8,344 bases of DNA. Origin: a bacterium. Its GTDB lineage: Bacteria; UBA9089; CG2-30-40-21; SBAY01. This document shows positions 2,004-8,344 of the stretch, one piece after another. The DNA lies in the NCBI GenBank assembly GCA_040757115.1, contig JBFLYA010000164.1:1-8344 (forward strand), written 5' to 3'. The notes under the pieces are model-generated. The model made no database searches, was not told the origin of the DNA, and saw nothing but the letters and a program-made list of their open reading frames with translations. The stretch's first letter is position 1, and the number at the start of each line of letters is the position of its first letter. The position numbers and the translations under genes are program-made.

Positions 2004-4541
2004 CTATAGAGGAGAATGCGAATTTCCAAAATTATCTTTATAGAATTGGTCAACCCGGCTAATATTCTCCACTTGTTTTTCTTCTCCTAACAATGCCTGT
2101 AAGAACTCCGGGAACTTTACTGTTTTCCCATTATCTACTTTAAAACAAACTAATAACTCATTTGGTTCATTTGCAGTGATTTGGTCGATAAACTGGCGGA
2201 TATTTAGCTCTTTGCCTTCTCTAAAACTTAAGATTTCCTCTTTTGCCAGAAATTCTTCAATCTTTGATTTTGAGATACATTCTTTTAGTTGTATTTTGTA
2301 GACTAATCGATTGATAAGAGAAGTTAAAGATTGACAATTAGTTGCGACAAAACCTGCTTGCAGGATTTTTATTCCTTCGGGTAAAGTTTGATTGAGTTGC
2401 AGGATTAATTCATCCAACTTTATCGGTCGATATAAATCTAAATCCGCATACTCTGCCTGACTACTTATTCCTACGGCTAATGCGTGTGAAAGGGAAAGTT
2501 TTGGATGAGGATTATAGCCCTGAGTCATCGCCACAGGAATATTTGCCCTTCGCATCGCCCGCATTAAAACCCGCATCAGGTCTAAATGGGAGATATATTG
2601 CACATCCCCTTTTTTGGTGAACTTAATCCTTACCCTTAGTTTGGTAACTGGTAATTGGTAATTGGTAATTGGTAACTGGTGATTGGTAACTGGTGATTGG
2701 TAATTGGTGATTGGCAACTGGTATTTTGGCTCTGTGCTCTGATAAGTGCATTCTTTTTCCAGACCACATTGATTGCATTTTTGAGTTTCTCTACAATCTG
2801 GAGTTTCCTCTCCTTTAATTGCCTTTTGGTATTCTTGCCAGAGAAAATCTTTAGTTACGCCTGCATCAATATGGTTCCAGGGTAGAATGTCATTAAAATC
2901 CATTGGTCTATTCGCATAAAACATCGGGTTGATATTCATCGTTTCAAATGCCTTCTGCCATTTGTCAAAGTCAAAATACTCGTTCCAGCCATCAAATTTA
3001 CACCCTGATTCATAAGCCTTTAATAACACCGCTCCTAATCTGCGGTCGCCTTTTGAGAAGACTGCCTCTAAAAAACTTAAATTTGTATCATGCCAGCTAA
3101 TTTCTATTTTTTCCCCTGGCAATTTATCAAGGAGATAATGTTGTCTGGCGATTAATTCCTCTTTGGGCAATTGTCCACACCATTGAAATGGTGTATGCGG
3201 TTTTGGGACATAAGAAGATAGGCTTATCTTTAGATTATGTCTGCCTTTACAAATCTTATTTATTTTATAAATAATATCAATAATTCCATCTAAATCCTCA
3301 TAATTTTCGAGTGGCAAACCAATTATGAAATAGAGTTTCACCCCGCGCCAACCTGCTTGAAATATAGACTGAATGGCATTAGTTAGTTCTTCAAGCATCA
3401 CTTTTTTATTAATTACCTTTTGCATCTTTGAAGTGCCTACCTCCGGGACAAGCGTCAGACCCGTAGGTTTGATTTTAGACAGGATAGATGAAATTTCCGT
3501 GATAGGTGGTTTTACCCGTAAAGAAGGTAAGGATAAACTTACACTATTGCCAAATTGTGTATGGAGACAATTGACTAAATTTAAAATATAAGAATACTGC
3601 GAGGTGCTCAAAGAGCCCAATGATAATTCTTCATAGCCGGTGTTAGAGATAAGTTCAGTAGCCTGATTCAAGAGGCAAGATACCGACCTTTCCCGAAGTG
3701 GACGATAGACCATTCCAGCATGACAAAATCGACAGCCTTGCGTGCAACCTCGTTGAATCTCTAATGATGCCCGGTCATGAACAATATTCATAAAGGGAAT
3801 GATTTGTTTAATTGGGAATTTTGCATTATCAAGGTTTTTAATAATACGCTTTTTGATTTTTTCAGGGACATCGGCTATTTTTGGACTAAATTTTTTAATC
3901 CGTCTATCTCTATCATAATCTACCTGATAAAAAGAAGGGACATACACGCCTTCTATTTTACTTAAAGCGAGTAAAAGGGCTGATTTTGATTTATGCCGAT
4001 TTTGTTTATAAACCTCGATTAATTCAAGGATAATTTCTTCTCCATCACCAATGCAGAATAAATCAATAAAATCAGCTAACGGTTCCGGGTTAAAAGTTAG
4101 AGGACCACCCGCAATAACTAATGGAAATTGTTTATTGCGGGAAGAAGCAAGAAGAGGGATTTGGGCTAAATCAAGCATATTCAGGATATTCGTATAGGTC
4201 AATTCATATTGTAGGCTAAATCCCAGAATATCAAAATCTTTAATGGGTAGTCGTGATTCAAGGCTAAAAAGCAGGATAGCGTTTTTCCGCATTACTTCCT
4301 GTGCATCAAACCACGGGGTATAGACCCGTTCTGCGGATACATCCTCCACATCATTAAGTATCTGATAAAGAATCTTCAGACCCAGATGAGACATCCCGAT
4401 TTCATAAACATCCGGAAAGGCTAAGGCTACTTTTACCGACACCTTTGCCCAATCCTTATGAATGCTATTAACTTCATTTCCTAAGTATCGCGTCGGTTTG
4501 GATACTTGGGTTAGTAAAGGGGTTATATCAATTTTATTCAT
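2004..4541 (-). CDS. Radical SAM protein (TIGR03960-like) fused to DUF2344 (TIGR03936)
   Basis: 845 residues. The N-terminal 200 or so residues carry the family segment FPDVYEIGMSHLGLKILYQI (43-61) and a Rossmann-like stretch ending in PLVIAGGPLTFNPEPLADF and GDGEE. The radical SAM core follows, with CTQGCRFC (C266, C270, C273) to bind a 4Fe-4S cluster, TLVPEVGTSKMQKVINKK (363-380) and YFIIGLPLE. A Cys cluster C583, C589, C592, C598 may bind metal. Residues 607-634 are four 7-residue repeats (consensus YQLPITN) encoded by a DNA heptamer array. From about 635 the DUF2344 domain runs to the end (YISHLDL, GYNPHPKLSLSHALAVG). The fusion is common in bacteria, but its reaction is unknown. It lies 27 bp after the zinc-ribbon gene, the last gene of the operon, with a weak ribosome site. 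Confidence 0.85.
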   Translation of the reverse strand: MNKIDITPLLTQVSKPTRYLGNEVNSIHKDWAKVSVKVALAFPDVYEIGMSHLGLKILYQILNDVEDVSAERVYTPWFDAQEVMRKNAILLFSLESRLPIKDFDILGFSLQYELTYTNILNMLDLAQIPLLASSRNKQFPLVIAGGPLTFNPEPLADFIDLFCIGDGEEIILELIEVYKQNRHKSKSALLLALSKIEGVYVPSFYQVDYDRDRRIKKFSPKIADVPEKIKKRIIKNLDNAKFPIKQIIPFMNIVHDRASLEIQRGCTQGCRFCHAGMVYRPLRERSVSCLLNQATELISNTGYEELSLGSLSTSQYSYILNLVNCLHTQFGNSVSLSLPSLRVKPPITEISSILSKIKPTGLTLVPEVGTSKMQKVINKKVMLEELTNAIQSIFQAGWRGVKLYFIIGLPLENYEDLDGIIDIIYKINKICKGRHNLKISLSSYVPKPHTPFQWCGQLPKEELIARQHYLLDKLPGEKIEISWHDTNLSFLEAVFSKGDRRLGAVLLKAYESGCKFDGWNEYFDFDKWQKAFETMNINPMFYANRPMDFNDILPWNHIDAGVTKDFLWQEYQKAIKGEETPDCRETQKCNQCGLEKECTYQSTEPKYQLPITNYQSPVTNHQLPITNYQLPVTKLRVRIKFTKKGDVQYISHLDLMRVLMRAMRRANIPVAMTQGYNPHPKLSLSHALAVGISSQAEYADLDLYRPIKLDELILQLNQTLPEGIKILQAGFVATNCQSLTSLINRLVYKIQLKECISKSKIEEFLAKEEILSFREGKELNIRQFIDQITANEPNELLVCFKVDNGKTVKFPEFLQALLGEEKQVENISRVDQFYKDNFGNSHSPL
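2641..2724 (-). repeat. Heptamer array (TTGGTAA type), 12 units, in-frame inside a gene
   Basis: Twelve contiguous 7-bp units of TTGGTAA, CTGGTAA, CTGGTGA and similar on the + strand (last unit CTGGTAT) span 84 bp. The array is coding on the minus strand. Three units equal 21 bp, so the protein repeats every seven residues four times (residues 607-634). It falls exactly between the radical SAM half and DUF2344. A 14-bp piece of the same repeat (GTTACCAATCACCA) occurs in opposite orientation at 4555-4568. Confidence 0.9.
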
Positions 4542-4554
4542 AATTAATTAGATG

Positions 4555-4568
4555 GTTACCAATCACCA
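4555..4568. repeat. Short solitary copy of the TTGGTAA-type heptamer repeat
   Basis: GTTACCAATCACCA is the exact reverse complement of 2677-2690 in the intragenic array. It occupies the 27-bp gap between the zinc-ribbon gene stop and the radical SAM start, where a ribosome binding site would be expected. Confidence 0.5.
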
Positions 4569-6113: not shown

Positions 6114-6142
6114 TTGACAGAGTCCTGATTATATGTTATATA
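6114..6142 (+). promoter_or_regulatory. Extended -10 promoter for the B12-type radical SAM gene
   Basis: Perfect TTGACA (6114-6119), 17-bp spacer ending in TGT, then TATATA (6137-6142). The expected start point is near 6149, only a base or two before the ATG at 6151, so the mRNA is probably leaderless. An in-frame ATG at 6133 lies inside the promoter and cannot be the start if this promoter is used. Confidence 0.6.
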
Positions 6143-6150
6143 TTAACAAT

Positions 6151-7566
6151 ATGAAGGTATTTTTGATTAATCCACCTGCCGCTAATGGAGTAAAGGTTGT
6201 TCGTGAAGGGCGATGTATGCAACGACAGGGTGCCTGGACTTCTACCTGGTCACCAATTACCTTAGCCATCTGTGCCAGTGTTTTAGAAAAGGAAAATATT
6301 CAGGTTAGACTTATTGATTGTATTATTAAAAATATCGATTCCAATTCCTTAAAGACCCAAATTGCTGATTTTAAACCTGACCTCATCATCTTAAATACCT
6401 CTACCCCATCAATCAAAAGTGATTTAGAGGTAGCTAAATTGGCTAAAACGGTAGTTCCATCGGTAAAAATAGCCGCTTTAGGAATTCATGTGAGTATTCT
6501 TCCAGAGGAATGTCTGATGCGTTTTTCAGACCTTGATTATTGTATTCGTCGGGAGCCAGAATTTATCGTTAGAGATTTAAGTTTAGCCTTACGCGATTCA
6601 AGAGAAATAAAAGATATTCTGGGGCTTTCTTATCGGTTAAATGGTAAAATTATTCATACCCCGGATAGGGAATTTATTTCAAATTTAGACGAATTGCCTT
6701 TTCCTGCCTGGCATTTGATAGACCCACAGGATTATCGTATGCCATTTAAAGATGAGCCTTTTCTACTTGTGGCTACCTCACGGGGTTGTCCTTACAAATG
6801 CACCTTTTGTGCCGACAAGGCATTTTATGGGACTAAATTAAGGCTAAAATCACCTCAAAGAATAGTGGATGAATTAGAATGGGTAAAACAAAGATTTGGC
6901 GTAGGAGAATTTCTATTCTGGAGCGAGTCATTTACCATTAATAATAAATTTGTGATGGAGGTATGTGAAGAAATCATTTCCAGGGGATTAAAGGTTTCCT
7001 GGGTATGCAATAGTCGGGTAGATAATGTGAATTTAACCTTACTTCGGGAGATTAAAGAGGCAGGATGCTGGATGATTGGCTATGGGGTTGAGTCGGGAAA
7101 TCAACAGGTTCTGGATAGTGTGAAAAAAGGCACGACATTGGAGCAAACAAAACAGGCTGTGCAATGGGCAAAAGAAGCTGGACTTGAGGTTACAGGGCAT
7201 TGCATTCTCGGATTACCAGGCGAAACCGAACAAACGATTAACCAAACAATAAACTGGACGATTGACTTAGACCTTGACTTTGCCCAATATTATTGTGCCG
7301 TTCCTTTCCCTGGCTCGGAGTTATATTCACAGGCACTTGAACAAAAGTGGAGTAATACCACCGACTGGACTAAATTTGAGCAAAATTTCTCCGTATTAGA
7401 CCTACCAACTATAACTGCAGATAAAATTATGGAATTTCGCAAACAGGCTTTTAAAAAGTTTTATCTTCGAGGAAAATTAATTTTAAAAACACTTCATAGA
7501 ATTAAATCTTTTAATCAACTCCGTGCCTTTATTAGGATGATTAGAGATTTCTTGACCTGGATATGA
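6151..7566 (+). CDS. B12-binding-domain radical SAM protein
   Basis: 471 residues from the ATG at 6151, which gives the classic start MKVFLINPP; an upstream ATG at 6133 lies within the promoter. Residues about 1-140 form the cobalamin-binding-type Rossmann domain (PDLIILNTSTPS, KIAALGIHVSILPEE), though no DxHxxG motif is obvious, so true B12 binding is uncertain. The radical SAM core begins with TSRGCPYKCTFC (C213, C217, C220) and continues with GYGVESGNQQVLDSVKKG and GHCILGLPGETEQT. A basic C-terminal region (about 425-471) has helices rich in Lys/Arg. Relatives include BchE-like, hopanoid-methylating and other class B methylating enzymes; the substrate here cannot be inferred. It stands alone, divergent from the minus-strand operon. 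Confidence 0.85.
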   Translation: MKVFLINPPAANGVKVVREGRCMQRQGAWTSTWSPITLAICASVLEKENIQVRLIDCIIKNIDSNSLKTQIADFKPDLIILNTSTPSIKSDLEVAKLAKTVVPSVKIAALGIHVSILPEECLMRFSDLDYCIRREPEFIVRDLSLALRDSREIKDILGLSYRLNGKIIHTPDREFISNLDELPFPAWHLIDPQDYRMPFKDEPFLLVATSRGCPYKCTFCADKAFYGTKLRLKSPQRIVDELEWVKQRFGVGEFLFWSESFTINNKFVMEVCEEIISRGLKVSWVCNSRVDNVNLTLLREIKEAGCWMIGYGVESGNQQVLDSVKKGTTLEQTKQAVQWAKEAGLEVTGHCILGLPGETEQTINQTINWTIDLDLDFAQYYCAVPFPGSELYSQALEQKWSNTTDWTKFEQNFSVLDLPTITADKIMEFRKQAFKKFYLRGKLILKTLHRIKSFNQLRAFIRMIRDFLTWI

Positions 7567-7773: not shown

Positions 7774-7790
7774 TTAAAATAGTGAAAATT

Positions 7791-8344
7791 ATGTATGAAA
7801 ATAGAATAGAAAAATCTGATATTTTAAAAAAAGAAATAGATTCCTGTCGTCCGATAAAAGGCTCTTTATTAAAACAGATAAGGGAATATTATAGGATAGG
7901 TCTTACCTACTCAAGCAATGCTATTGAAGGGAACTCGCTTACTGAAACTGAAACAAAGATAGTCTTAGAAGATGGGATAACTATTGGTGGAAAACCCTTA
8001 AGAGACCACTATGAAGCAGTAGGACATAGTCAAGCTTATGATTTACTTCTTAAATTATCAAAAGAAAGAAAAATAACCGAAGAAAATGTTTTAGATTTGC
8101 ATCGTCTGTTTTTTTATCACATAGATAGAAAGAATGCTGGGCGATATAGAAAAACAAGGGTTATTATTACAGGCTCAAGGTATATTCCTCCTTCGCCTGA
8201 AAAGATTTCAGAACTAATGAAAAAATTTATTGAGGAACTCCCGAGTATAAAGAAAGCCAATCACCCCATAGAATATTCTGCTTTATTACACAAGGAATTT
8301 GTAGGAATACATCCATTTATTGATGGAAATGGAAGGATAGCCAG
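7791..8344 (+). CDS. Fic-family protein, class II-like (3' end missing)
   Basis: The frame is open to the window edge, giving 184 residues. Fic proteins usually AMPylate proteins, transferring AMP to a Ser/Thr/Tyr hydroxyl, using a conserved His. The hallmark HPFIDGNGR is at residues 174-182 with catalytic H174. An N-terminal inhibitory helix motif SNAIEG (S42 to G47, with E46) matches the (S/T)xxxE(G/N) rule, placing the glutamate before the Fic core as in class II autoinhibited enzymes. GRYRKTRVIITGSRYIPPSP (117-136) is the usual stretch before the active site, including the flap region. A DNA-binding C-terminal domain, common in this class, would lie beyond the window. The ATG at 7791 has no Shine-Dalgarno; a second ATG at 7795 is out of frame. 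Confidence 0.88.
   Translation, partial: MYENRIEKSDILKKEIDSCRPIKGSLLKQIREYYRIGLTYSSNAIEGNSLTETETKIVLEDGITIGGKPLRDHYEAVGHSQAYDLLLKLSKERKITEENVLDLHRLFFYHIDRKNAGRYRKTRVIITGSRYIPPSPEKISELMKKFIEELPSIKKANHPIEYSALLHKEFVGIHPFIDGNGRIA

Follow-up and report, generated by a model that had tools for sequence, protein, structure and literature searches.

Introduction

Heptanucleotide long simple sequence repeats and the short tandem repeats of cyanobacteria form a known class (Mrazek et al. 2007 via PMC4679880; PMC4692102). For neuO of E. coli K1 the switching of the reading frame was proven and effects on enzyme activity were reported (PMC13001214). The amino-acid tandem repeats of Borgs are, like the repeats described below, fast-changing repeats within ORFs which make disordered regions. 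In contrast, the units within Borg ORFs are all divisible by three (PMC9879509), whereas the unit found here has 7 bp and only unit triplets keep the frame. The constant-size, variable-sequence repeats of Bacillus share the fixed unit length, the free sequence and the several families per genome, but their units comprise 52 or 20-21 nt (PMC8161180) instead of 7 bp.

The locus compared with these systems is a heptamer array in a stretch of 8,344 nucleotides of a bacterial genome (G000), called the window in the following. An earlier note on this DNA had read the array as a selfish or slippage-prone TTGGTAA repeat that has been accepted as a tunable linker between two enzyme domains.

Results

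The array is located in a gene on the minus strand (2004-4541, ORF of 845 aa), in which a B12-binding radical SAM protein of the TIGR03960 family is fused to TIGR03936/DUF2344. TIGR03960 matched residues 9-596 (779.7 bits, cut-off 462.3, E 1.9e-234) and TIGR03936 residues 636-825 (176.3 bits, cut-off 71.9, E 6.3e-52). Both curated cut-offs were passed in the order that defines the fused radical SAM protein, and Pfam identified Radical_SAM and DUF2344 in the 845-aa protein. At the first, second and third codon positions the gene differs at 16, 7 and 34 sites from that of the sister species (G001) and at 157, 87 and 361 sites from that of G002. This concentration of substitutions at third positions indicates that the gene is constrained and maintained. 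The window also contains a B12-binding radical SAM protein at 6133-7566, for which the nearest models, HpnJ/BchE, scored far below their cut-offs, and a Fic/DOC family protein at 7782-8344, cut off at the window end.

Twelve heptamer units, A[AG]T[TC]ACC on the coding (minus) strand, were found at 2641-2724. By ORF coordinates they encode residues 606-634 (QLPITNYQSPVTNHQLPITNYQLPVT), approximately, so that the array forms the linker between the radical SAM half and DUF2344, as the earlier note had proposed. For 2641-2723 TRF reported a period of 7 with 11.9 copies (score 110) and a period of 14 (score 124). The period-7 self-match score of the array was 36, and the maximum in 300 dinucleotide-preserving shuffles of the window was 12, with none of the 300 coming near. 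TRF and shuffles thus agree on a tandem 7-bp period well above chance, as is characteristic for heptanucleotide repeats. The ORF reads through the array without a stop. The twelve units are thus real and in frame. Since 7 and 3 are coprime, a stop-free coding strand yields the same 7-residue cycle in every frame; translation gave this identical cycle in all three minus-strand frames and stops in all three plus-strand frames.

The periodicity is not restricted to the TTGGTAA units. It is continued in the same register by AGAGCAC/AGAGCCA units to about 2745, and the whole linker (2640-2747, minus strand), from the last Cys of the CNQCGLEKEC cluster to LRVRI, consists of 15 units plus 3 bp in one 7-bp register and encodes 36 aa. 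Its period-7 self-match was 0.71 compared with a codon-shuffle mean of 0.30, a value attained in 0 of 1000 shuffles. An AlphaFold2 model from a six-sequence alignment, with a mean pLDDT of only 62, gave pLDDT values of 24-31 and no secondary structure for residues 601-630, which would be consistent with a disordered linker in this region. In a text search of the literature for the peptide PITNYQ / TNYQLP, none of the 15 papers listed contained it.

Outside the gene, two other heptamer arrays were detected by TRF in the window, with the units GCAGAGG (784-848) and TCCCGAG (960-993). The earlier note had also seen the repeat of the linker at 4555-4568. A similar sequence, GGTTACCAATCACC on the plus strand, is indeed located just upstream of the gene (4554-4567, listed for the minus strand), but it comprises only two units on the opposite strand, was not called by TRF and is too short to stand on its own.

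The linker was compared with those of related proteins, its length being counted from the last Cys of the CGLE[KQ]EC motif to LRVRI. It has 36 aa in G000, 29 aa in G002 (JASEHU010000228.1), 43 aa in G003 (SBAY01000316.1) and 127 aa in G001, where the unit number stems from a draft metagenome assembly, in which collapsed or wrongly joined repeats are possible. These lengths correspond to 15, 12, 18 and 54 heptamers, respectively, plus one codon. In all four family members the linker is in frame. The lengths all equal 1 modulo 7, an agreement with a chance of about 0.003 if in-frame lengths were random, in a small sample chosen post hoc. Anchored at the flanks, the difference between G001 and G000 is +273 bp, i.e. 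13 x 21. Orthologues therefore differ here by multiples of three units, as in NeuO, and the change in 7-residue steps foreseen in the earlier note was observed. The protein of G001 is 97% identical to that of G000 outside the linker, which is three and a half times longer. A long expansion is possible at this site, and self-match peaks of the G001 linker at 14, 28, 42, 84 and 126 bp suggest block duplication.

In each of the four species the entire linker keeps a single 7-bp register, while the unit sequences are unlike. AATTACC, AGTTACC and AATCACC were found in G000 and G001, AATTTCC together with AATTACC in G002, and GGAGCAC together with GATTACC/GACCACC in G003. Two more lineages of the phylum carry other heptamers at the linker, CACCCAT-like ones in G011 and GGATCAG-like ones in the more distant G018. 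The linker is thus a site that 7-bp arrays have occupied repeatedly. For G004-G007, members of the same order, with linkers of 29-37 aa, no significant period was detected. The residue repeat was not seen in any distant orthologue that lacks the DNA repeat. In G013 (L042) a different repeat, AEPAWRAEPAWRAEPAW, lies ahead of the cysteine cluster, upstream of the radical SAM linker.

The Rickettsia palindromic element is a kind of selfish in-frame insertion element. A net insertion of this kind was not found at the linker: array-free relatives have linkers of 29-39 aa with unrelated sequence, and the 36 aa of the window lie within this range. Hence, the array appears mostly to occupy an existing linker. 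The assumption of the earlier note that twelve units were added, necessarily as a multiple of three, is not supported for a linker of ordinary length.

Heptamers were also examined across the genome, in samples that comprised about 0.8 Mb for G000 and about 1.45 Mb for G001. Exact copies of TTGGTAATTGGTAA occur 100 times in the 4.3-Mb assembly of G000, the reversed control 0 times; many arrays thus exist besides that of the linker, in line with the earlier note. A scan of periods 4-30 over 798 kb of G000 yielded 69 arrays with period 7, 13 with period 21 and 0-5 with each other period, so that 7-bp arrays are enriched over other unit lengths as in known heptanucleotide repeats. At least 30 unit families were distinguished in these 798 kb, among them GGCAGAG, GGGACTC, AGTAGAA, GTGAATT, GATAGTT, TTGGTAA and more than 20 others. 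The genome-wide common property is the length of 7, not the sequence of the unit. A specific selfish TTGGTAA element, as suggested in the earlier note, is not supported in view of this general period and of the different linker units of the species. Moreover, TTGGTAATTGGTAATTGGTAA was present in only 6 of 193 genomes in a pattern search, which argues against an old, widely inherited sequence and is silent on other unit types.

Per base, gene interiors (41 arrays) contain about 13-fold fewer arrays than the remaining sequence (294), with ORFs of 250 aa or more taken as genes. Between G000 and G001, the length differences of intergenic arrays were -7 and 77 bp, both divisible by 7 and neither by 3, and clean unit losses were visible in the alignment.

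Despite this depletion, in-frame arrays were found in loops of other proteins, identified by Pfam as CarB, TrpE, QueC, MurF, ProS and a T2SSE-type ATPase and named by eye as HdrA-like and DUF2723-like. Loop lengths with and without array were 56 vs 58 for TrpE, 52 vs 52 for MurF, 54 vs 51 for ProS, 54 vs 54-55 for QueC and 50 vs 52 for CarB. In these five proteins the arrays span 10-14 residues, and the net difference in loop length from most array-free relatives is only -2 to +3. This near-zero change could stem either from selection for loop length or from overwriting in place. As array ends are fuzzy within one genome, only differences between orthologues are informative on unit multiples of three; when the sister species were compared, the other coding arrays showed no length difference, and large steps occurred in only one gene. 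Paralogous DUF2723-like genes (75-84% identity) differed by 33, -9 and 21 bp and were used neither for nor against the step rule.

Some of these proteins showed further peculiarities. The DUF2723-like membrane paralogues (L070:1842, L076:9564, L084:16197, L156:7162) carry unlike arrays (AAAACTC, TACCGAT, GCTCAAC) in the same loop before YLYLFAFTLGLS. In HdrA-like proteins (L098:2558-7237, L096:11884-14913, L170:15683) arrays are located between ELEERL and VVMIQCVGSR, and the protein of G000 in L098 carries four of them. The C-terminus of CarB (L089, residues 1074-1100) has the tail NRSATEAQRTQRE...KYKK, which is found again at dozens of sites across G000 and G001 and thus points to a second dispersed repeat family that extends coding ends. 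On contig C77 of G000 (12754-16744; L241-L253, L258) lies an ORF that runs off the contig end and has at least 1330 aa. Its central part is built from about 11 copies of a repeat of 63/94/101 aa; every copy contains QLPITNYQLPITDQELP (TTACCAA units), and many also contain PSPESRVPSPESRAP (CCCGAGT units). Repeat lengths of 101 and 94 aa differ by one 7-residue step. From its position behind genes for an SLT transglycosylase and a MotE/MgtE_N-like protein, this ORF possibly encodes a FliK-like flagellar hook-length protein, although Pfam lent this naming no support.

Discussion

The best reading of these data, to which we assign a probability of roughly 70%, combines a heptamer repeat-making process with slippage or recombination and with selection for the frame in a permissive linker. 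G000 and its near relatives would possess a process that makes or multiplies tandem repeats with a 7-bp period and free sequence. The array at 2641-2724 would be one of its products, in a linker that tolerates almost any sequence. Unit numbers probably change by replication slippage or by unequal recombination between units, and new unit types may arise from mutation and homogenisation or from ectopic conversion between arrays, so that units would continually be exchanged or homogenised while the register stays the same. Because every frame gives the same cycle, what counts is the frame at the exit of the array: selection would purge the gain or loss of a single unit, and three-unit steps (21 bp, 7 residues) would survive. 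The orthologue lengths support this step rule at the linker, and the length itself appears to be near-neutral. Most likely, the array is a tolerated by-product of the repeat-making process rather than an evolved tuning device.

The small net change of loop length also fits another reading, which we consider unlikely: a process of this lineage could imprint a 7-bp period on DNA, with no set sequence and with no net gain or loss of length. One example would be brief copying in misalignment, seven bases back, followed by realignment; the tolerated loops of many core proteins would gradually turn into 7-residue repeats, with a fixed register and turnover of sequence.

Tuning as proposed in the earlier note implies that selection acts on the array length, which would determine how far apart the radical SAM half and DUF2344 are or how freely they move. 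The lengths in the relatives differ by exact 7-residue steps, and for NeuO of E. coli K1 the repeat number was reported to raise enzyme activity (PMC13001214). Nevertheless, array-free relatives manage with unrelated linkers of 29-39 aa, and the sister species, nearly identical elsewhere, tolerates 127 aa. In some relatives, e.g. G010, G033 and G042, the two halves are even separate ORFs. Arrays are also present in loops of unrelated enzymes, and their depletion in gene interiors fits tolerance rather than use. Tuning is therefore quite improbable.

Similarly small is the probability that a mobile hairpin element bearing heptamer arrays was inserted, the coding array being one of its arms. Outside genes such structures were found: of 295 non-coding arrays, 72 are accompanied by an inverted partner array at a distance of up to 250 bp, and clean, array-bearing insertions of about 177 and about 135 bp separate G000 from G001. 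However, such a partner was detected for 0 of 40 coding arrays, which thus lack the palindromic structure. Inspection by eye revealed neither a target duplication nor element ends at the linker, and the net length compared with array-free relatives is near zero. Many of the non-coding arrays are hairpin arms with an inverted array of the same family, e.g. L078:19056-19104 and L086:1468-1499 with its partner.

A phase-variation switch as in NeuO, which slips by AAGACTC units with divisibility by three deciding on the frame (PMC13001214), is very improbable. A change by one or two units would shift the frame and uncouple DUF2344 from the radical SAM half, and both wrong exit frames indeed leave the DUF2344 frame or meet stops within a few codons. 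Yet the reading frame is kept in every one of the four family members, whereas for neuO 65.6% of the complete genomes were out of frame. The radical SAM gene is not a gene for a surface structure, the imperfect units slow slippage, and similar arrays occur in CarB, ProS and other core genes, whose inactivation would carry a cost. Finally, an assembly artefact or chance periodicity is hardly credible: tandem repeats are often misassembled and the genomes are metagenome assemblies, but 84 bp fit within a short read, the independent assemblies G001, G002 and G003 carry in-frame arrays at the same site, and the shuffles never attained the array score.

With a tolerated product of the repeat-making process as the preferred reading, the linker offers a clear natural case of a repeat unit that is not a multiple of three living inside essential genes. 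It also yields a testable rule, by which coding arrays are allowed changes of three units only, whereas intergenic arrays may gain or lose any number. A period that is fixed while the sequence is free bears on the old question why 7 bp is favoured in many bacteria. For annotation, caution is advisable: in uncultured bacteria, a 7-residue protein repeat such as QLPITNY, PSPESRV or NPKSEIR may go back to repeated DNA and not to a domain.

Comparison with known systems

Bacterial heptanucleotide repeats correspond to those described here in the favoured length of 7 bp, the many arrays and the over-representation outside genes (Mrazek et al. 2007 via PMC4679880). In contrast to them, at least 30 unit sequences were found here in one genome, arrays are in frame in core enzymes, and the same loops are re-occupied by different units in different species.

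The TAACTGA repeats of marine Beggiatoaceae and cyanobacteria (MacGregor 2015, PMC4679880) are likewise heptamers with a few copies within ORFs. One of their strands also has stops in all frames and the other encodes a 7-residue cycle, LSVISYQ (PMC4679880). They consist of one sequence, mostly beside start codons and rarely in known enzymes, whereas many sequences occur here and length steps between orthologues were measured.

The array of neuO (E. coli K1, PMC13001214) is, like that of the window, a coding heptamer array with the frame kept at multiples of three units and with 7-residue steps. But it belongs to the N-terminal part of a phase-variable capsule enzyme, while the present array forms a linker inside the protein, consists of imperfect units, keeps the frame in all four relatives and belongs to a gene that is not known to switch. 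In general, heptamer arrays and their translation into 7-residue repeats are already known, and the array of the window belongs to this class. What it adds to our knowledge is a series of orthologues in which the register stays fixed while the units change, and the occurrence of such arrays in core enzymes.
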